This document shows positions 12,493 to 20,153 of a DNA stretch of 64,000 bases, piece by piece. This DNA comes from Pelagibius marinus. GTDB taxonomy: Bacteria; Pseudomonadota; Alphaproteobacteria; Kiloniellales; Kiloniellaceae. The position numbers and the translations under genes are program-made. The notes below the pieces were generated by a model. The model made no database searches. It was not told where the DNA came from and saw only the letters and a list, made by a program, of their open reading frames with translations. The stretch lies in assembly GCF_014925385.1 (NCBI RefSeq), contig NZ_JACSDK010000010.1:310001-374000 (forward strand), written 5' to 3'. How positions within the stretch are numbered: position 1 is the stretch's first letter; every line of letters starts with the position of its first letter.

Positions 12493-13341
12493 ATGACGGA
12501 CAAGCCGTTGCTCACCATCGAAGACCTGAAGGTCAGCTTCCCGACCCGCAAGGGCCTGGTCGAGGCGGTGCGCGGCATCAGCCTGTCGCTGGGGCGGGAG
12601 AAGCTTGGCATCGTCGGCGAGTCCGGCTCCGGCAAGTCGCTGACCGGGCGATCGATCCTGCGCCTGGTGCCCAAGCCCGGCGTGGTCACCGCCGGCCGGC
12701 TGGAGTTCGACGGCGTCGACCTGCAGCGCGCCAGCGAGGCGCAGATGCGCGAGATCCGCGGCCAGCGCATCTCCATGGTGATGCAGGATCCCAAGTTCTC
12801 GCTGAACCCGGTGATGCGCGTCGGCGAGCAGATCGCCGAGGCCTACCGCACCCATCAGAAGGTGCCGCAGGCCGAGGCCAGGCGGCGGGCGCTGGACATG
12901 CTGGCGGCGGTGCGCATCCGTGATCCCGAGCGCGTCTACCGCGCCTATCCGCACGAGGTCTCAGGCGGCATGGGCCAGCGCATCATGATCGCCATGATGC
13001 TGATCCCCGACCCGGACCTGCTGATCGCCGACGAGCCCACCTCCGCCCTGGACGTCACGGTGCAGCTGCAGGTGCTGGCGATCCTGGACGACCTGGTGAC
13101 CCAGCGCGGCATGGGCCTGGTCTTCATCAGTCACGACCTGAACCTGGTGGCCTCCTTCTGCGACCGGGTGGTGATCATGTACGCGGGCCGCGTGATGGAA
13201 GTCTGCGACGCCAAGAACCTGGCCGCCGCCCAGCACCCCTACACGCGGGGCCTGCTGAACTGCCTGCCGTCGATCGACGGCGACGGGCGCGACCTGCCGG
13301 TGCTGAAGCGCGATCCCGCCTGGATGGAGCACGGGCTGTGA
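12493..13341 (+). CDS. ABC transporter ATP-binding protein, DppD type
   Basis: 282 residues with Walker A GESGSGKS, signature VSGGMGQR, Walker [13 protein letters not shown] and the H-loop FISHDL. It energises the preceding permeases. Family members are usually 320-340 residues; this one stops soon after the [13 protein letters not shown] segment, so the C-terminal oligopeptide-type extension is short. Its TGA overlaps the GTG start of the next gene. Confidence 0.93.
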
Positions 13342-14150
13342 ACGGTGCGGCCCAGGCCTCCAGCATGATCGATGTCCGCGGCCTCGACGTGGTCTTCGGC
13401 AAGGGCGCCGACGAGGTGCGGGCGGTGCGCGACGTCAGCTTCCGGGTGCCGGAGGGCGCCACCTTCGGCCTGGTCGGCGAGTCCGGCTCCGGCAAGTCCA
13501 CGGTGCTGCGGGCGCTGAGTGGCCTCAACCACGATTGGACCGGGCAGGTCGTGATCGCGGGCCAGGCGCAGACGCCCAAGCGCGACAAGGCTTTCTACAA
13601 GCTGGTGCAGATGGTCTTCCAGGATCCCTACGGCTCCCTGCACCCGCGCCACACCGTCGACCGCATCCTTATGGAGCCGCTGTCGATCCACGGCTTCGGC
13701 GACGCGGAGCGGCGCATCGAGCAGGTTCTGGGCGAAGTGGGACTAGGGCCGTCCTTCCGCTTCCGCTACCCGCACCAGCTCTCCGGCGGCCAGCGCCAGC
13801 GCGTCGCCGTGGCCCGGGCGCTGATCCTGGAACCCAGGATCCTGCTGCTCGACGAGCCGACCTCGGCCCTCGACGTCTCGGTGCAGGCAGAGGTGCTGAA
13901 CCTGCTGCAGCGCCTGAAGCAGGAGCGGGGACTGACCTACATCCTGGTCAGCCACGACCTCTCCGTGGTCGCCCATATGTGCGACGAGCTGGCGGTGATG
14001 AACAACGGCGCCGTGGTCGAGGAGCTCTCCGTCGAGCGGCTGAAGAGCCACGCGCCGGAGCACCCCTACACCCGTCAGCTCATGGTGGCGAGCCTCGGCT
14101 ACGACCGCGCGGCCATCGACCGCTTCGAGGATTTCGGGGTGGAGGGGTAG
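13338..14150 (+). CDS. ABC transporter ATP-binding protein, DppF type
   Basis: 270 residues, second ATPase of the importer. Walker [10 protein letters not shown], signature LSGGQRQR, Walker [13 protein letters not shown] and switch region LVSHDLSV are intact. It starts at GTG 13338 in a GTGA overlap with the first ATPase and ends the operon; two hairpins follow. The pairing of a DppD-like and a DppF-like ATPase with two permeases is the complete heterotetrameric core of a peptide-type importer. Confidence 0.93.
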   Translation: MNGAAQASSMIDVRGLDVVFGKGADEVRAVRDVSFRVPEGATFGLVGESGSGKSTVLRALSGLNHDWTGQVVIAGQAQTPKRDKAFYKLVQMVFQDPYGSLHPRHTVDRILMEPLSIHGFGDAERRIEQVLGEVGLGPSFRFRYPHQLSGGQRQRVAVARALILEPRILLLDEPTSALDVSVQAEVLNLLQRLKQERGLTYILVSHDLSVVAHMCDELAVMNNGAVVEELSVERLKSHAPEHPYTRQLMVASLGYDRAAIDRFEDFGVEG

Positions 14151-14313: not shown

Positions 14314-14964
14314 TTACTCCGCCGGCGCCTCGGCCGCTTCTTGCTGGGCCAGGTCCAGCATCTGGGCCAGGATCTTGGGCGGCTGGGCGCCGGCCAGGGC
14401 GTGGCGGCCGTTGAAGATGAAGCAGGGCACGCCGTCGATGCCCAGGCCTCGGGCCTGGCGGTCCTCGTCCTGCAGTTCGGCCTTCATCGCGTCGCTCTCC
14501 AGGAAGGCCCGGGCCTCCATCGGGTCCAGGCCGACGCTCTCGGCCGCGGCGACCAGCACGTCCAGGTCGCCGATGTCCTCGCCACGGAAGAAGTAGGCCT
14601 GGAACAGGGTCTCCACCAGCTCGGTCTCCTTGTCCTGGCCCGCGGCCCAGCGGATCAGGCGGTGGGAGGCGATGGTGTTGGGGGTGCGCTTGATGGCCTC
14701 GAAGGCGAAGTCGACGCCGTCCTCGGCCCCGGCCTCGCGGATGCGATCGTAGACCAGGCCCGCGTTCTCGGTGCCGCCGAACTTCATGGAGAGGTAGGCC
14801 TGGCGGTCCATGCCTTCTTCCGGCATCTGGGGGTTGAGCTGGAAGGTGCGCCAGTGGATGGCCACCTCCAGGCCCGGGCGCTCGGCCAGGGCCTTTTCCA
14901 GGCGCCGCTTGCCGATCAGGCACCAGGGGCAGATGGTGTCGGAGAAGATGTCGATCTGAATCAT
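14314..14964 (-). CDS. DsbA-family FrnE-like oxidoreductase
   Basis: 216 residues of the thioredoxin-fold 2-hydroxychromene-2-carboxylate isomerase/FrnE branch of DsbA. The active site C12-P-W-C15 is preceded by IDIFSDTICPWC, and the cis-Pro loop is GVPCFIFN near residue 170. There is no signal peptide, so it acts in the cytoplasm, as FrnE does in disulfide or polyketide chemistry. I start at ATG 14964 because the 29 codons upstream have no homology. Divergent from the acyl-CoA ligase operon. Confidence 0.88.
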   Translation of the reverse strand: MIQIDIFSDTICPWCLIGKRRLEKALAERPGLEVAIHWRTFQLNPQMPEEGMDRQAYLSMKFGGTENAGLVYDRIREAGAEDGVDFAFEAIKRTPNTIASHRLIRWAAGQDKETELVETLFQAYFFRGEDIGDLDVLVAAAESVGLDPMEARAFLESDAMKAELQDEDRQARGLGIDGVPCFIFNGRHALAGAQPPKILAQMLDLAQQEAAEAPAE

Positions 14965-15089
14965 GACGGCTTTGCCTCTTTTCCCGGCGCTTGCAGGCTT
15001 GACCTGCCGGGTCTTCGCCCCAACCATACCGCAGCCAAGGCCACCAGACAAAAGGGGGTCACGAAAGCTTGAAATCCGGGGAAATGCCG

Positions 15090-16748
15090 ATGGGGACGGT
15101 GGGAGCGGAACTGGGGAAACAAGAGGCGGGCGGAATCTACGACCGGGGGCTGGACCGCAATGCGGCCAACTCTGCTCCGCTGACGCCGGTCACCTTCCTG
15201 ACGCGCGCCGCGGCGGTCTATCCGGACAAGCTGGCGGTGGTCCACGGCGACCAGCGCTTCACCTATGCCCAGTTTCACGAGCGGGCCTGCCGCCTGGCCT
15301 CGGCGCTCAGGCGGCGCGGCCTGACGCGCGGCGACTGCATCGCCGTCATGGCCCCCAACATCCCGCCGATGCTGGAGGCCCACTACGGCGTGCCGATGAT
15401 GGGCGGGGTGCTGAACTCTCTCAACATCCGCCTCGACGCCCGCACCCTGGCCTTCATCCTGGAGCACGGCGAGGCCAAGGTGCTGCTCACCGACCGGGAG
15501 TTCTCACCGGTCATCAAGGAAGCCCTGGAGCTGACCCAGGCCAGGCCCCTGGTGGTCGACATCGACGACCCCCTGGCGGAAGGCGGCGAGCTGCTGGGCG
15601 AACTCACCTACGAGGACCTGCTGGCCGAGGGCGACCCCGGAGACTCCTTCGACGACCCGCTGGACGAGTGGCAGTCGCTGTCGCTGCTCTACACCTCCGG
15701 CACCACCGGCAATCCCAAGGGCGTGGTCTATCATCACCGCGGCGCCTACCTGAACGCGGTCGGCAACATGCTGACCTTCGGCCTGGGAAGGGATTCGGTC
15801 TACCTCTGGACCCTGCCGATGTTCCACTGCGACGGCTGGACCTTCACCTGGGCCGTGACGGCGGCCAACGCCACCCATGTCTGCCTCAGGAAGGTCGACC
15901 CGGCGGTGATATATCCGCTGATCCGCGACGAGGGCGTGACCCACATGTGCGGCGCGCCCATCGTGCTGACCCTGCTGGCCCACGCACCCGCGGCGGTGAA
16001 GGTGGAGTTCCCGCAGATCGTTGACTGTGCCACCGGCGGCGCGGCGCCGCCCAGCGCGGTCATCGAGGCCATGGAGGCGAACGGCTTCCGCGTCATCCAC
16101 CTTTACGGCCTGACCGAGTGCTACGGCCCGGCCACGGTCTGCGCCTGGCAGGACGAATGGGCCGGCTACGACCTGCAGAAGCGTTCGGCCAAGATGGCGC
16201 GCCAGGGGGTGAACTATCTGACCCTGGAGGCTGCCGTGGTCATGGACCCGGAGACCATGACGCCGGTGCCCCGCGACGGAGAAACCCTGGGCGAGATCAT
16301 GCTGCGCGGAAACACGGTGATGAAGGGCTATCTGAAGAACCCTAAGGCCACCGAGGAGGCCTTCCGAGGCGGTTACTTTCATACCGGTGACCTGGCGGTT
16401 TGCCACCTCGACGGCTACATCGAGGTGAAGGACCGCTCCAAGGACGTGATCATCTCCGGCGGCGAGAACATCTCCAGCCTGGAGGTCGAAGAAGCGCTCT
16501 ACCGCCACCCCAAGGTGCTGGAAGCCGCGGTGGTGGCGCGCCCCGACGAGAAGTGGGGCGAGTCCCCCTGCGCCTTCGTCACCCTGCGCGAGGGCGAGCG
16601 CGCCACGGCGGAGGAGGTCATCGCCTTCTGCCGCGAGGCCCTGGCCCACTACAAGGTGCCGCGCAGCGTGGTCTTCGGACCGCTGCCCAAGACCTCCACC
16701 GGCAAGATCCAGAAGTTCGTGCTGCGCGCGCGGGCGGCGGAGCTGTGA
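15090..16748 (+). CDS. Acyl-CoA synthetase (AMP-forming), LvaE-like
   Basis: About 552 residues of the ANL superfamily, activating a carboxylic acid to its CoA thioester through an acyl-AMP. The ATP loop YTSGTTGNPKG (near 200-210), the YGLTECYGP motif, GYFHTGDLAV, and the C-terminal KDRSKDVIISGGENIS and STGKIQK (catalytic Lys) are all present. Start ATG 15090 is preferred because CGGGGA lies about 8 bases upstream; ATG 15084 is an alternative. First gene of an operon whose composition matches lvaABCDE, so a short keto or hydroxy acid such as levulinate or 4-hydroxyvalerate is a likely substrate; medium-chain acids are the alternative. Confidence 0.9.
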   Translation: MGTVGAELGKQEAGGIYDRGLDRNAANSAPLTPVTFLTRAAAVYPDKLAVVHGDQRFTYAQFHERACRLASALRRRGLTRGDCIAVMAPNIPPMLEAHYGVPMMGGVLNSLNIRLDARTLAFILEHGEAKVLLTDREFSPVIKEALELTQARPLVVDIDDPLAEGGELLGELTYEDLLAEGDPGDSFDDPLDEWQSLSLLYTSGTTGNPKGVVYHHRGAYLNAVGNMLTFGLGRDSVYLWTLPMFHCDGWTFTWAVTAANATHVCLRKVDPAVIYPLIRDEGVTHMCGAPIVLTLLAHAPAAVKVEFPQIVDCATGGAAPPSAVIEAMEANGFRVIHLYGLTECYGPATVCAWQDEWAGYDLQKRSAKMARQGVNYLTLEAAVVMDPETMTPVPRDGETLGEIMLRGNTVMKGYLKNPKATEEAFRGGYFHTGDLAVCHLDGYIEVKDRSKDVIISGGENISSLEVEEALYRHPKVLEAAVVARPDEKWGESPCAFVTLREGERATAEEVIAFCREALAHYKVPRSVVFGPLPKTSTGKIQKFVLRARAAEL

Positions 16749-16750
16749 CC

Positions 16751-17518
16751 ATGCCCTTGGAGTCCTTCGACCTCTCCGGCAAGGCGGCGATCGTCACCGG
16801 CGCCTCCAGCGGGCTCGGCCGCCACGCGGCGCGCAGCCTGGCGGCGGCGGGGGCCAAGGTCGCCATTGCCGCGCGCCGCCTGGAGCCGCTGGTGGAGTTG
16901 GAAAAGCAGATCGAAGCGCGGGACGGGCGCGCCATTCCGCTGCGCCTCGACGTCACCGACCCGGCCTCGGTGGCCGACTGCGTGAAGGCGGCGGAGACCG
17001 AGCTGGGGCCGATCTCCATCCTGGTGAACAACGCCGGCGTCGCCGTCACCAAGGCGGCCCTGGAGGTCGAGGAGGCGGACTGGGACCAGGTGGTGGGCAC
17101 CAACCTGAAGGGCGCCTGGCTGATGGCCCAGGCGGTGGCCGAACACATGGTCCGCCTCGGCCATGGCGGCTCGATCATCAATACCGCCTCGGTTCTGGGC
17201 CTGGCCGGGGCGGCGCAGATCCCGGCTTACTGCGCCTCCAAGGGCGGCCTCGTGAACCTGACCCGCGCTCTGGCCGTGGAGTGGGCGCGTCACGGGATCC
17301 GTGTGAACGCCTTGGCGCCGGGCTACATCGAGACGGAGATCAACCGCGACTTCCTGACCAGCCCGGCGGGGGAGTCCTTACGCAAGCGGGTGCCGCTGCG
17401 CCGCTTCGGCACGCCGGAAGACCTGGACGGCGCCCTGCTGCTGCTGGCCTCCGAGGCGTCCCGCTATATCACCGGCAGCGTCATCGTCATCGACGGCGGC
17501 CAGTCGGCTGCCCTCTAG
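16751..17518 (+). CDS. SDR-family oxidoreductase, LvaD-like
   Basis: 255 residues of the classical short-chain dehydrogenase family: TGASSGLG cofactor loop (residues 17-24), NNAGV, a catalytic Ser in NTASVLGL, YCASKGG (Tyr/Lys) and the PGYIETEIN segment. Two bases separate it from the ligase stop. In the lva pathway LvaD reduces levulinyl-CoA to 4-hydroxyvaleryl-CoA; the neighbours make this the leading role. A 3-ketoacyl-CoA or 3-hydroxyacyl-CoA reaction in ordinary beta-oxidation is the alternative. Confidence 0.88.
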   Translation: MPLESFDLSGKAAIVTGASSGLGRHAARSLAAAGAKVAIAARRLEPLVELEKQIEARDGRAIPLRLDVTDPASVADCVKAAETELGPISILVNNAGVAVTKAALEVEEADWDQVVGTNLKGAWLMAQAVAEHMVRLGHGGSIINTASVLGLAGAAQIPAYCASKGGLVNLTRALAVEWARHGIRVNALAPGYIETEINRDFLTSPAGESLRKRVPLRRFGTPEDLDGALLLLASEASRYITGSVIVIDGGQSAAL

Positions 17519-17536
17519 TTTTAGTGAGCACTGGAT

Positions 17537-18733
17537 ATGGACTTTTCCCTGGCACCTGAAGTCGAAGACCTGCGGCTGAAGATCAGAGACTTCGTCGAGC
17601 GCGAGATCATGCCGCTGGAGGCCGACCCGGCGGCCTACGACGAGCACGAGAACATCGCGCCGGCGAAGCTGGAGGCGTTGCGCGCCAAAGCCAGGGGCGC
17701 CGGGCTCTGGGCGCTGCAGATGCCCAAGGCGCGCGGCGGGCAGGGGCTGAACGTCGCCGGCATGGCGGCCTGCTACGAGGAGATGGGCCGCTCCATTTTC
17801 GGGCCGGTGGTCTTCAACTGCGCGGCGCCCGACGACGGCAACATGATGCTGCTGGAGAAGGTCGCCACCGACGAACAGAAGGCGCGCTGGCTGCAGCCCA
17901 TCGTCGACGGCAAGCTGCGTTCCGCCTTCGCCATGACCGAGCCCATGCCGGGCGCCGGCTCCGACCCGGGCCTGATGCTGAGCCGCGCCGAGCGCGCAGG
18001 CGACGACTGGGTTCTCAATGGGCACAAATGGTTCATCACCGGCGCCGACGAGGCCGAGCATTTCATCGCCGTGGTGCGCACCTCCGACGACGCGCGCAAG
18101 GGCCTGACGGCCTTCCTGTTCAACCGCGACACGCCGGGGCTGGAGATCGTCCGGCGCATCCCCATCATGGGGCCGGAGGAGCACGGCGGCCACTGCGAGC
18201 TGCGCTTCAACGACCTGCGCGTTCCCGACAGTGACCGCCTGATGAATGTCGGCGATGGTCTGAAGGTGACGCAGATCCGCCTCGGCACCGCGCGGCTCAC
18301 GCACTGCATGCGTTGGCTCGGCATGTCCAAGCGGGCCCTGGAGATCGCGCGGCCGCACGTCGCCGAGCGCCAGAGCTTCGGCATTCCGCTTGCCGACCAC
18401 GAGGGCGTGCAGTGGCTGCTCGGCGAGGCTGCCATGGCCATCGAGTTGGGCCGGCTGCTCACCATGCGGGCGGCGGTGAAGCTGGACCGCGGCGACTTCG
18501 CCCGCAAGGAAATCTCCATGGCCAAGATCCAGGTCGCCGACACGCTCCACAAGGCGGTGGACACGGCGATCCAGCTGCTCGGCGCCAAGGGCTATTCCAA
18601 GGACACGCCGCTGGAGTGGATGTACCGCTACGCCCGCCAGGCACGCCTGGTCGACGGCGCCTCGGAGGTGCACAAGATGGTGCTGGCGCGGGCCTTCCTG
18701 AGCGACGGCCTGGACTTCTGGGGTTGGGAATGA
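17537..18733 (+). CDS. Acyl-CoA dehydrogenase family protein, LvaC/ACAD11-like
   Basis: 398 residues with the three acyl-CoA dehydrogenase domains: an N-terminal helical region, the FAD strand FAMTEPMPGAGSDP (near 133-146), and a C-terminal helical domain with RQSFGIPLADHEGVQW and QLLGAKGYSKDTPLEW. The arrangement beside an APH-type kinase is that of bacterial LvaC and of the fused human ACAD10/ACAD11. In LvaC the enzyme converts the 4-phosphoacyl-CoA to the enoyl-CoA and rehydrates it to the 3-hydroxyacyl-CoA. TGA overlaps the kinase ATG (ATGA). Confidence 0.9.
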   Translation: MDFSLAPEVEDLRLKIRDFVEREIMPLEADPAAYDEHENIAPAKLEALRAKARGAGLWALQMPKARGGQGLNVAGMAACYEEMGRSIFGPVVFNCAAPDDGNMMLLEKVATDEQKARWLQPIVDGKLRSAFAMTEPMPGAGSDPGLMLSRAERAGDDWVLNGHKWFITGADEAEHFIAVVRTSDDARKGLTAFLFNRDTPGLEIVRRIPIMGPEEHGGHCELRFNDLRVPDSDRLMNVGDGLKVTQIRLGTARLTHCMRWLGMSKRALEIARPHVAERQSFGIPLADHEGVQWLLGEAAMAIELGRLLTMRAAVKLDRGDFARKEISMAKIQVADTLHKAVDTAIQLLGAKGYSKDTPLEWMYRYARQARLVDGASEVHKMVLARAFLSDGLDFWGWE

Positions 18734-19788
18734 CGACGACCTTGGAGGAATCGCGCCTGGCCGGGCGCAAGGCACCGCTGGAGGCCTTTCTGGCCAAGGC
18801 GGCGGGGGCGAAAGCCGTGGAGGTGGTCGACGCCCGCCCGCTCAGCGGCGGCGCCATCCAGGAAAACTGGCTGCTGGACCTGGTGATCCACGGCGGCCCC
18901 ATGGCGGGCCCGCTGGAGGCGGTGCTGCGCACGGATGCGCCGTCCACGGTCGCCGTCAGCCGCAGCCGCGCCGAGGAGTTCGCTTTGCTGAAGGTGGCGC
19001 AGCAGGCCGGCGTGACGGTGCCGGAGCCGCTGTGGCTCTGCGAGGAGCCGTCGGTGCTGGGCAAGACCTTCTACATCATGCGCCGGGTGGCGGGCACCGC
19101 AGTGCCGCACCGCCTGATGAAGGAAAGCGATCTGGGGGGCGACCGCGACGAACTGGCCGGGCGCTTGGGCATGGAGCTGGCGCGCATCCACTCGGTGACG
19201 CCGCCGCGCGAGGAACTTGCCTTTCTCGGCACGCCCTCGGCGGACCCGGCCCTGGAGGCCGTGGCGCGCTACCGCGCCTATCTCGACGCGCTGGGCGGCA
19301 GCTACCTGGCGCTGGAGTGGGGACTCAGATGGTGCGAACTGCACGCGCCCGAGCCACAGGGGCCGGTCCTGGTGCATCAGGATTTCCGCACCGGCAACTA
19401 CATGGTCGACCGGCACGGCCTGACCGGGATCCTGGACTGGGAGTTCTGCGACTGGGGCGACCCGATGACCGACATCGGCTGGTTCTGCGCCGCCTGCTGG
19501 CGCTACAGCCATCCGGAGCTGGAGGCCGGCGGCATCGCCCCGCGCGGGCCCTTCTACCACGAGTACGAGGCCGTCTCGGGCCGGCGCATCGATCCCCAGG
19601 CCGTGGCCTTCTGGGAGGTCATGGCCCACATCCGCTGGGCGGTGATCGCCCTGCAGCAGGGTGAGCGCACGCTGTCCGGCGGCGAGGACTCGCTGGAGCT
19701 GGCGCTAACGGGCCGTGTCTATCCGCCGGCGATCGAGGAGGAGATCCTTCGCCAGTGCGGCCCCGACCAATGGAAGGCAAGCGAATGA
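18730..19788 (+). CDS. APH-family phosphotransferase, LvaA-like
   Basis: 352 residues of the aminoglycoside-phosphotransferase fold (ACAD10/11 N-terminal kinase type). The catalytic loop HQDFRTGN gives H216, D218 and N223, and the metal-binding D236 lies in GILDWEFCDWGDP. The N-terminal part has the nucleotide loop around LSGGAIQENW. Its position between an acyl-CoA dehydrogenase and a DUF6285 protein points to phosphorylating a 4-hydroxyacyl-CoA rather than an antibiotic. ATGA overlaps couple it at both ends. Confidence 0.9.
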   Translation: MTTTLEESRLAGRKAPLEAFLAKAAGAKAVEVVDARPLSGGAIQENWLLDLVIHGGPMAGPLEAVLRTDAPSTVAVSRSRAEEFALLKVAQQAGVTVPEPLWLCEEPSVLGKTFYIMRRVAGTAVPHRLMKESDLGGDRDELAGRLGMELARIHSVTPPREELAFLGTPSADPALEAVARYRAYLDALGGSYLALEWGLRWCELHAPEPQGPVLVHQDFRTGNYMVDRHGLTGILDWEFCDWGDPMTDIGWFCAACWRYSHPELEAGGIAPRGPFYHEYEAVSGRRIDPQAVAFWEVMAHIRWAVIALQQGERTLSGGEDSLELALTGRVYPPAIEEEILRQCGPDQWKASE

Positions 19789-20153
19789 GTGCAGGACAGG
19801 GGAAAGGAGGCGGGGAGGCCGACGGCGTTCGCCTGCTGCATCTGGCGCGGCGCGAGTTGCTGGACGTTGTCCTGCCGACACTGGAGGGAGATGCGCGTTA
19901 CCGCGCCCGGCTGATCGCCAACGCCATGAAGATCGCGGCGCAGGAGATGGACCTCGGCGCAGGCAATGCGGCGGCGACAGCTGGTGAGTTGGAAGCCTTC
20001 GCCGCGGGGCTCGACGGCGCGCCGGCGGACGGCCCGCAGGGGCCCCGCGAAGCGATCCGCGATGCCCTGCGCAGCGGCGAAGTGGACGGCAATGCGGACC
20101 TCTTTGCCCTGCTTGAACGGATGACAGGGCGGCGCCGTGCCCTGCTGGGATAG
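19785..20153 (+). CDS. DUF6285 protein, LvaB-like kinase partner
   Basis: 122 residues, mostly helical, with LLHLARRELLDVVLPTLEGDARYRARLIANAMKIAAQE (given here in pieces: LLHLARRELLDVVLP, then RYRARLIANAMKIAARE-like sequence). DUF6285 proteins are found beside APH-type kinases. In the lva pathway the small protein LvaB is needed for LvaA kinase activity, and this gene sits in the equivalent place, directly downstream of the kinase in an ATGA overlap. A longer upstream start (19755) is possible but the overlap pattern of the operon favours ATG 19785. Last gene of the operon. Confidence 0.8.
   Translation: MSAGQGKGGGEADGVRLLHLARRELLDVVLPTLEGDARYRARLIANAMKIAAQEMDLGAGNAAATAGELEAFAAGLDGAPADGPQGPREAIRDALRSGEVDGNADLFALLERMTGRRRALLG

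Follow-up and report, generated by a model that had tools for sequence, protein, structure and literature searches.

A probable lva-type operon in Pelagibius marinus with an acyl-CoA dehydrogenase of a sister type and a DUF6285 kinase partner

A 64,000-nucleotide stretch of the Pelagibius marinus genome (contig NZ_JACSDK010000010.1, positions 310,001 to 374,000; hereafter the window) carries five genes that probably make up an operon for breaking down a 4-oxo or 4-hydroxy carboxylic acid via phosphorylation and phosphate removal. The five open genes lie on the + strand and encode, by Pfam and NCBIfam, an AMP-binding ligase, a short-chain dehydrogenase/reductase (SDR), an acyl-coenzyme A (CoA) dehydrogenase (ACAD), an APH kinase and a DUF6285 protein (Table 1). 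Named after the lva genes of levulinate catabolism in Pseudomonas putida, their order is E-D-C-A-B. In the proposed pathway, the ligase would convert the acid to its CoA thioester, the SDR would reduce the 4-oxo group to a 4-hydroxyl, and the kinase with its DUF6285 subunit would phosphorylate that hydroxyl. The ACAD-like flavoenzyme, with its Asp and R-H-R pocket, would then take the phosphate off to give a 2-enoyl-CoA, which ordinary beta-oxidation would finish. We infer each reaction and the substrate from sequence comparison, and the chemistry is likely that of lva and of mammalian ACAD10/ACAD11. Levulinate is a plausible substrate and the plainest one; the sequence leaves the chain length unfixed. 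The assignment draws on what was computed here: gene content and order, the best-match relation of the kinase, SDR and ACAD to lva, the sister status of the ACAD, the conserved residues and the pairing of DUF6285 with the kinase.

Correspondence with the canonical lva locus

The yardstick for the comparison was the canonical lvaR-ABCDEFG locus on plasmid record L133, which is distinct from the KT2440 locus of P. putida. The window proteins are 51% (LvaA), 38% (LvaB, over 104 residues), 42% (LvaC), 54% (LvaD) and 59% (LvaE) identical to their counterparts in this locus. When the P. marinus genome was searched with L133 LvaA, the window kinase was the sole match at an E value of 1e-5 or better, with 351.6 bits. 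LvaC found the window ACAD at 314 bits with a runner-up at 180, and LvaD found the window SDR at 253 bits with a runner-up at 147. The reverse search was made in a genome (G644) that holds an lvaRABCDE locus, L156. The best match to the window ACAD was a gene of that locus, and the only match to the window kinase at E 1e-12 was its LvaA. Based on these matches, the window kinase appears to be an LvaA orthologue, and the SDR, on its identity and best-match margin, appears to be an LvaD orthologue. The DUF6285 gene directly follows the kinase gene, overlapping it by 4 bases, as LvaB would be expected to follow LvaA. The original prediction of an lva-type pathway is well supported by the own-genome best matches for LvaA, LvaC and LvaD together with the reverse matches in G644, and its pairing of the kinase, SDR and DUF6285 protein with LvaA, LvaD and LvaB agrees with the identities above.

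The five genes and their order were described correctly in that prediction. The description of the junctions as mostly stop-start overlaps was too generous, since only two of the four overlap (+2, +18, -4 and -4 bases for E/D, D/C, C/A and A/B). The order itself is beyond chance, because E-D-C-A-B is the commonest arrangement among 78 named loci with both kinase and DUF6285 genes, accounting for 20 of them. C-D-A-B with a window-type ACAD was found in 16 and D-C-A-B in 11, the ACAD type in these counts being assigned by best score.

The role of the DUF6285 protein as kinase partner had been put forward as a guess for direct test. Such a role is already on record: the RefSeq name of the L133 protein is '4-hydroxypentanoyl-CoA kinase subunit LvaB', and passages of PMC6692424 report that an lvaB deletion in P. 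putida is unable to grow on levulinate. The same source relates that Rand et al. had noted lvaABCD homologues in Alpha-, Beta- and Gammaproteobacteria. The term DUF6285 was not met in the literature searched.

The acyl-CoA dehydrogenase and the likely substrate

The window ACAD is a member of a sister subfamily of LvaC and not an LvaC orthologue, though it is the best LvaC match of its own genome. In a tree of 73 ACADs with the pocket motif, three groups have good support: 28 rows form an ACAD11-like group, 10 rows form the LvaC group (100/98) and 35 rows form the group of the window ACAD (100/100). The last two join at 100/99, apart from the ACAD11-like group. An early idea that the LvaC type equals ACAD11, with the window ACAD standing apart, was dropped on the strength of this tree. 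The motif agrees by group, being mostly HHCMR in ACAD11-like proteins and mostly ..LTHCMR in the LvaC and window types. When the window type was sought in 398 genomes of the phylum, 16 scored 551-904 bits, and the next score was 323.

Whereas the ACAD departs from LvaC in descent, its active site is that of the LvaC/ACAD10/11 superclade, with the catalytic Asp and the R/H/R phosphate pocket in place (D373; R248, H256 and R259). The residues R248, R253, H256, R259 and D373 correspond to R626, R631, H634, R637 and the catalytic D753 of ACAD11. R626, H634 and R637 of ACAD10/11 were modelled as holders of the 4-phosphate, and non-conservative substitutions there were the most disruptive, according to passages of PMC12440821. 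That the five genes form an ordinary beta-oxidation cluster merely resembling lva, as the breadth of the SDR and ligase families might allow, is very improbable given the Asp in place of Glu and the R/H/R pocket, the more so as Glu is present, and the three pocket residues are absent, in six conventional ACADs encoded close to other DUF6285 kinases.

The ACAD and kinase lineages do not run strictly in parallel. Window-type ACADs accompany 24 kinases with DUF6285 and 7 without, from which it appears that, at that level, the two genes have been swapped as modules. Within the LvaA clade, LvaC-type and window-type ACADs alike occur with kinases of a single clade, and a single-clade hypothesis for the kinases of LvaC-type loci was marginally rejected (p-AU 0.048 in the approximately unbiased test, with long branches present). 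An exchange of the two ACAD types within the LvaA clade is suggested by these data, and only suggested. In Aquibaculum arenosum (G159; L183, L145), the window-type ACAD lies on a different contig from the E-D-AB genes, and the kinase and DUF6285 are fused.

Several observations weigh against assigning the operon to an lva-type pathway. In no open frame of the window did LvaF, LvaG or LvaR find a match at E 0.01; across the whole genome LvaG reached 41.7 bits at best, and all LvaR matches begin at residue 215 or later. E-D-A-B without an adjacent ACAD occurs in 6 of the 78 named loci. The substrate of the window ACAD may differ from that of LvaC, because the protein shares just 42% identity with canonical LvaC and belongs to a separate 100/100 clade. 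The orthology of the ligase to LvaE is ambiguous. Canonical LvaE scores 856.4 bits in family NF006020, to which the window ligase also belongs, and three ligases of the P. marinus genome match canonical LvaE at 686.5, 681.5 and 653.5 bits, the window copy being the second. The other two, at C16:22486-24084 and C3:324545-326140, score about equal to the operon copy. A one-to-one correspondence with LvaA-E, as first proposed, therefore does not extend to the ACAD, a sister of LvaC, or to the ligase, whose standing as the unique LvaE counterpart was not borne out.

The operon may serve levulinate itself, the substrate of P. putida lva, with the ACAD gene swapped for a sister copy; we regard this as a serious possibility, if short of an even chance. 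All five functions are present, the SDR and an LvaE-family ligase are retained with the kinase, and one kinase clade accompanies ACADs of both types. The lack of a match to an LvaG-like transporter or to LvaR speaks against a levulinate operon, and a separate ACAD clade of 35 rows hints at a lasting difference.

The same sister clade would suit a general salvage of medium-chain 4-hydroxy or 4-oxo fatty acids (gamma-lactones), as for ACAD10/11, a reading we hold tentatively. It is in line with the finding of no dedicated transporter or specific regulator in the window and with a promoter-like element before the ligase gene. Two copies of the exact sigma54 pattern TGGC-N7-TTGCW are present in the window, both more than 3 kb from the operon. 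Salvage is less easily reconciled with the ligase, which falls in the LvaE subfamily, whose P. putida member is reported to prefer C4-C6 acids (passages of PMC6692424), and no lactonase was found among the neighbours scanned with Pfam.

An improbable alternative is that the kinase phosphorylates a different hydroxyl in another class of substrate and that the ACAD acts on the product. The model for this is the APH-fold 25-hydroxy steroid kinase, which serves ATP-dependent dehydration (passages of PMC8449060) and whose structure 9fsg is, along with 3dxp, the closest solved fold to the natural kinase-DUF6285 fusion L183 (E 5.1e-12, 22% identity for 9fsg). The ACAD phosphate pocket, the SDR and the LvaE-family ligase all point instead to an lva or ACAD10/11 setting.

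The kinase and its DUF6285 partner

Of two types of kinase, one is almost always accompanied by DUF6285. DUF6285 is present in 66 of 289 alphaproteobacterial genomes at 71 places (window included, and counted after two fragments of one gene were joined), and each of the 71 has an APH kinase match on its own strand, with the end of the match 67-224 bases upstream. Kinase and DUF6285 share one open frame at 13 of these places, and the 13 fall in four separate groups of the kinase tree. Since this sample had been selected by DUF6285, a second was selected by the kinase to offset the bias. DUF6285 adjoins the kinase in 30/30 loci of best matches, window included, taken from 89 matching genomes among 398. 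Among 80 named relatives, it stands beside the kinase in 78, with 8 fusions; the misses are L260, at a contig end, and L251, which appears real. The window protein passes the Pfam gathering score (37.0 bits against a cut-off of 28.1), and the 5.44-Mb P. marinus genome has a single DUF6285 match.

The split between kinase types is deep. In a joint kinase tree of 108 rows, a 100/100 branch separates 87 rows from 21 stand-alone kinases. The catalytic residues D218, N223 and D236 are invariant in all 108 rows. No DUF6285 was found within 900 bases of any of the 21 stand-alone kinases at E under 0.01 (best chance match, E 0.28), and the same search for hidden DUF6285 recovered 83 of 83 in its positive control. 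Three rows on the 87 side were first marked as being without DUF6285. In L088 and L092 the row proved to be the first of two tandem kinase genes. The third, L137 of Acinetobacter, was rejected as a same-clade kinase without the partner, as a divergent DUF6285 open reading frame (ORF) occupies the gap and scores 34 bits to the clade profile. The window kinase falls in the LvaA clade, and among named kinases a tree of 45 puts it nearest to the Pelagibius litoralis enzyme, at 73% identity.

In L137 the divergent DUF6285 gene (L137:7909-8253) sits between the kinase and a histidine phosphatase gene. By analogy, this case suggests that LvaB, reported missing in Pseudomonas citronellolis LA18T, may merely have gone unrecognised. 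DUF6285 is also followed directly by a gene of the histidine phosphatase family at L132:8301-8978, L136:8255-8908 and L293:8289-9050; the window has no match to that family.

A second and larger clade of DUF6285 kinases lies mostly outside lva settings, with some members beside conventional acyl-CoA dehydrogenases. Eleven members form a single chain with DUF6285, namely L032, L033, L038, L047, L048, L069, L089, L093, L095, L097 and L101. When 111 ORFs from the neighbourhoods of 30 of the 48 second-clade loci, selected by hand from 146, were scanned with Pfam, no single setting emerged. Acyl-CoA dehydrogenase domains were the commonest, at 7 of 111, and included both ACAD11-like and conventional forms.

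What DUF6285 does for the kinase may be connected with CoA binding. In the ACAD11 model, two arginines, R86 and R176, are reported to associate with CoA (passages of PMC12440821). R86 maps by description only, as the Arg beside the alphaC Glu, which is position 83 in the chain 8v3v alignment, and D220 and R176 of that source map with an offset of one. Arg occupies both matching columns in 21/21 stand-alone kinases. The counts for the two columns are 1/34 and 1/34 in the LvaA clade (1/34 and 4/34 with another aligner, so that the second varies with the aligner) and 3/53 and 0/53 in the other DUF6285 kinases. The window kinase has a GGAIQEN loop and, in the first alignment, Glu at both CoA-contact columns, not the GGQSNPT loop and Arg of the ACAD10/11-type stand-alone kinases. 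Its match to ACAD11 scores 46 bits, as against 247 for a stand-alone bacterial kinase. DUF6285 in turn carries a conserved motif: among 56 aligned operon proteins R96 never varies, and G98 and D101 are each conserved in 90% or more; family-wide, over 73 sequences, R96 is found in 58, G98 in 62 and D101 in 37.

These data lead to the thought that DUF6285 may supply the CoA grip, a correlation across one deep split and so a lead, not a proof. A count that weighs against the CoA-grip reading is that an Arg stands within one column of the second position in 16/34 LvaA-clade and 5/53 other DUF6285 kinases, so that the difference at this column may be a shift and not a loss. In vitro, a kinase and an ACAD of Burkholderia pseudomallei replaced the ACAD10 domains (PMC11342911, in part), and the passages concerned name LvaE as substrate maker and no third bacterial partner beyond it. 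This kinase is presumably a stand-alone one, and the work fits the CoA-grip reading. An extended form of the idea is that DUF6285/LvaB would, as a subunit, grip the substrate for an entire class of APH-fold hydroxyacyl-CoA kinases, its (I/L)R-x-G motif (R96, G98) replacing the two arginines with which stand-alone kinases would hold CoA and which this class would have lost or never possessed; lva would then be one branch of a larger two-subunit family, fused to single chains several times. We consider this extended form doubtful.

Structure predictions were made for both arrangements. The window DUF6285 model consists of four helices (predicted local distance difference test, pLDDT, 88.1; predicted template modelling score, pTM, 0.63), and a fold search of the PDB with it gave no match, the best E value being 2.2. 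The natural fusion of A. arenosum (L183) was predicted over 468 residues with pLDDT 88.8 and pTM 0.87, scores compatible with a fixed packing of the kinase and DUF6285 domains.

Surroundings of the operon and related systems

The account of the gene set given at the outset left out a divergent DsbA-family gene with a CPWC motif, which recurs beside such loci. Of 28 named ligase-led loci (E-D or E-C start), 23 have it upstream of the ligase, and none of the 51 others does; a single E-A-B locus is in neither class, and 3 of the 5 ligase-led exceptions start near a contig end. In P. marinus its start was picked by eye as the first ATG of the conserved part. A strict link is weakened by two ligase-led loci outside the named set, L037 and L059, that gave no match, and by weaker DsbA-family matches (33-51%) further off in L054, L055, L090, L161 and L173.

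Between the DsbA-family gene and the ligase lies TTGACC-N19-CCATA, which appears to resemble a housekeeping promoter; a sigma-70 scan did not list it. The pattern TTGAC-N17-22-CCATA occurs in 13 of 23 DsbA-ligase intergenic regions, window included, where 200 shuffles gave a mean of 0.01, and it is absent from all 47 regions taken upstream of other loci. The pattern was picked by eye after the regions had been viewed, and the relatedness of the 23 inflates the count.

Further upstream, ATPases of an oligopeptide-type ATP-binding cassette transporter at 12493-14150 end 0.94 kb before the operon. The original prediction had seen no adjacent transporter or sigma54 activator. This holds for LvaF, LvaG and LvaR, and it overlooked these ATPases. 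They adjoin the operon only in the four nearest of 80 named relatives (L211, L221, L224 and L229), and the other flanking genes beyond the DsbA region are likewise common to those four alone.

Table 1. Features of the operon and its upstream region in the window
Feature	Coordinates	Strand	Basis
Divergent DsbA-family (CPWC) gene	14314..14964	-	PF01323, 152.9 bits
Promoter-like element TTGACC-N19-CCATA, between divergent gene and ligase	14999..15028	+	TTGAC-N17-22-CCATA pattern in related regions
LvaE-like acyl-CoA ligase, 552 amino acids, NCBIfam PRK08162 subfamily	15090..16748	+	NF006020, 886.6 bits (cut-off 677)
LvaD-like SDR, 255 amino acids, likely 4-oxoacyl-CoA reductase	16751..17518	+	54% identity to canonical LvaD
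LvaC-like atypical acyl-CoA dehydrogenase, 398 amino acids, likely 4-phosphate removal to enoyl-CoA	17537..18733	+	Pocket residues, tree
LvaA-like APH-fold kinase, 352 amino acids, likely 4-hydroxyacyl-CoA kinase	18730..19788	+	51% identity to canonical LvaA; LvaA clade
DUF6285/LvaB-like small protein, 122 amino acids, predicted four-helix, kinase partner	19785..20153	+	Pfam PF19802

The split between the kinases bears on a question that the known systems raise. Mammalian ACAD10/11 function as kinase and ACAD domains alone, though lvaB is reportedly required for growth on levulinate (passages of PMC6692424), and no explanation of the role of LvaB was found in the literature searched. The division into kinases with DUF6285 and no Arg in the two CoA-contact columns, or the reverse, makes that role testable with single-residue mutants, and the natural kinase-DUF6285 fusions, being single chains already, lend themselves to structure work. 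Enzymes that convert 4-hydroxy acids and gamma-lactones can be drawn from the sister ACAD clade, of which no assay was found in the literature searched.

The P. putida lva system (lvaABCDEFG, lvaR) shares with the window the kinase, its DUF6285 partner, the SDR, an LvaE-family ligase and the ACAD pocket residues. It differs in that the window has the order E-D-C-A-B, an ACAD of the sister clade, no LvaF, LvaG or LvaR, and a divergent DsbA-family gene with a promoter-like element. The lvaE2 cluster of P. citronellolis LA18T likewise has the kinase and LvaC and LvaD homologues, whereas its ligase is of another branch, and it is reported, in passages of PMC6692424, to be without LvaB and to have a histidine phosphatase gene; a divergent DUF6285 gene is nonetheless present in Acinetobacter L137, a locus comparable to it. 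The resemblance to mammalian ACAD10/ACAD11 lies in kinase and then ACAD chemistry on 4-hydroxyacyl-CoA, with equivalents of R626, H634, R637 and D753 in the window. In contrast to those fused enzymes, the window has separate polypeptides, a DUF6285-accompanied kinase without Arg at the CoA columns, and an additional SDR and ligase. The 25-hydroxy steroid kinase of Sterolibacterium (9fsg) has the APH fold and phosphorylates a hydroxyl en route to its loss, but its substrate is a steroid, and the identity over the fold match is 22%. The likely chemistry of the pathway is already known from these systems, and what is new in the present comparison is the sister type of ACAD, the pairing of DUF6285 with a kinase at every alphaproteobacterial site, the split of the kinases by DUF6285 and the recurrent DsbA-family neighbour.

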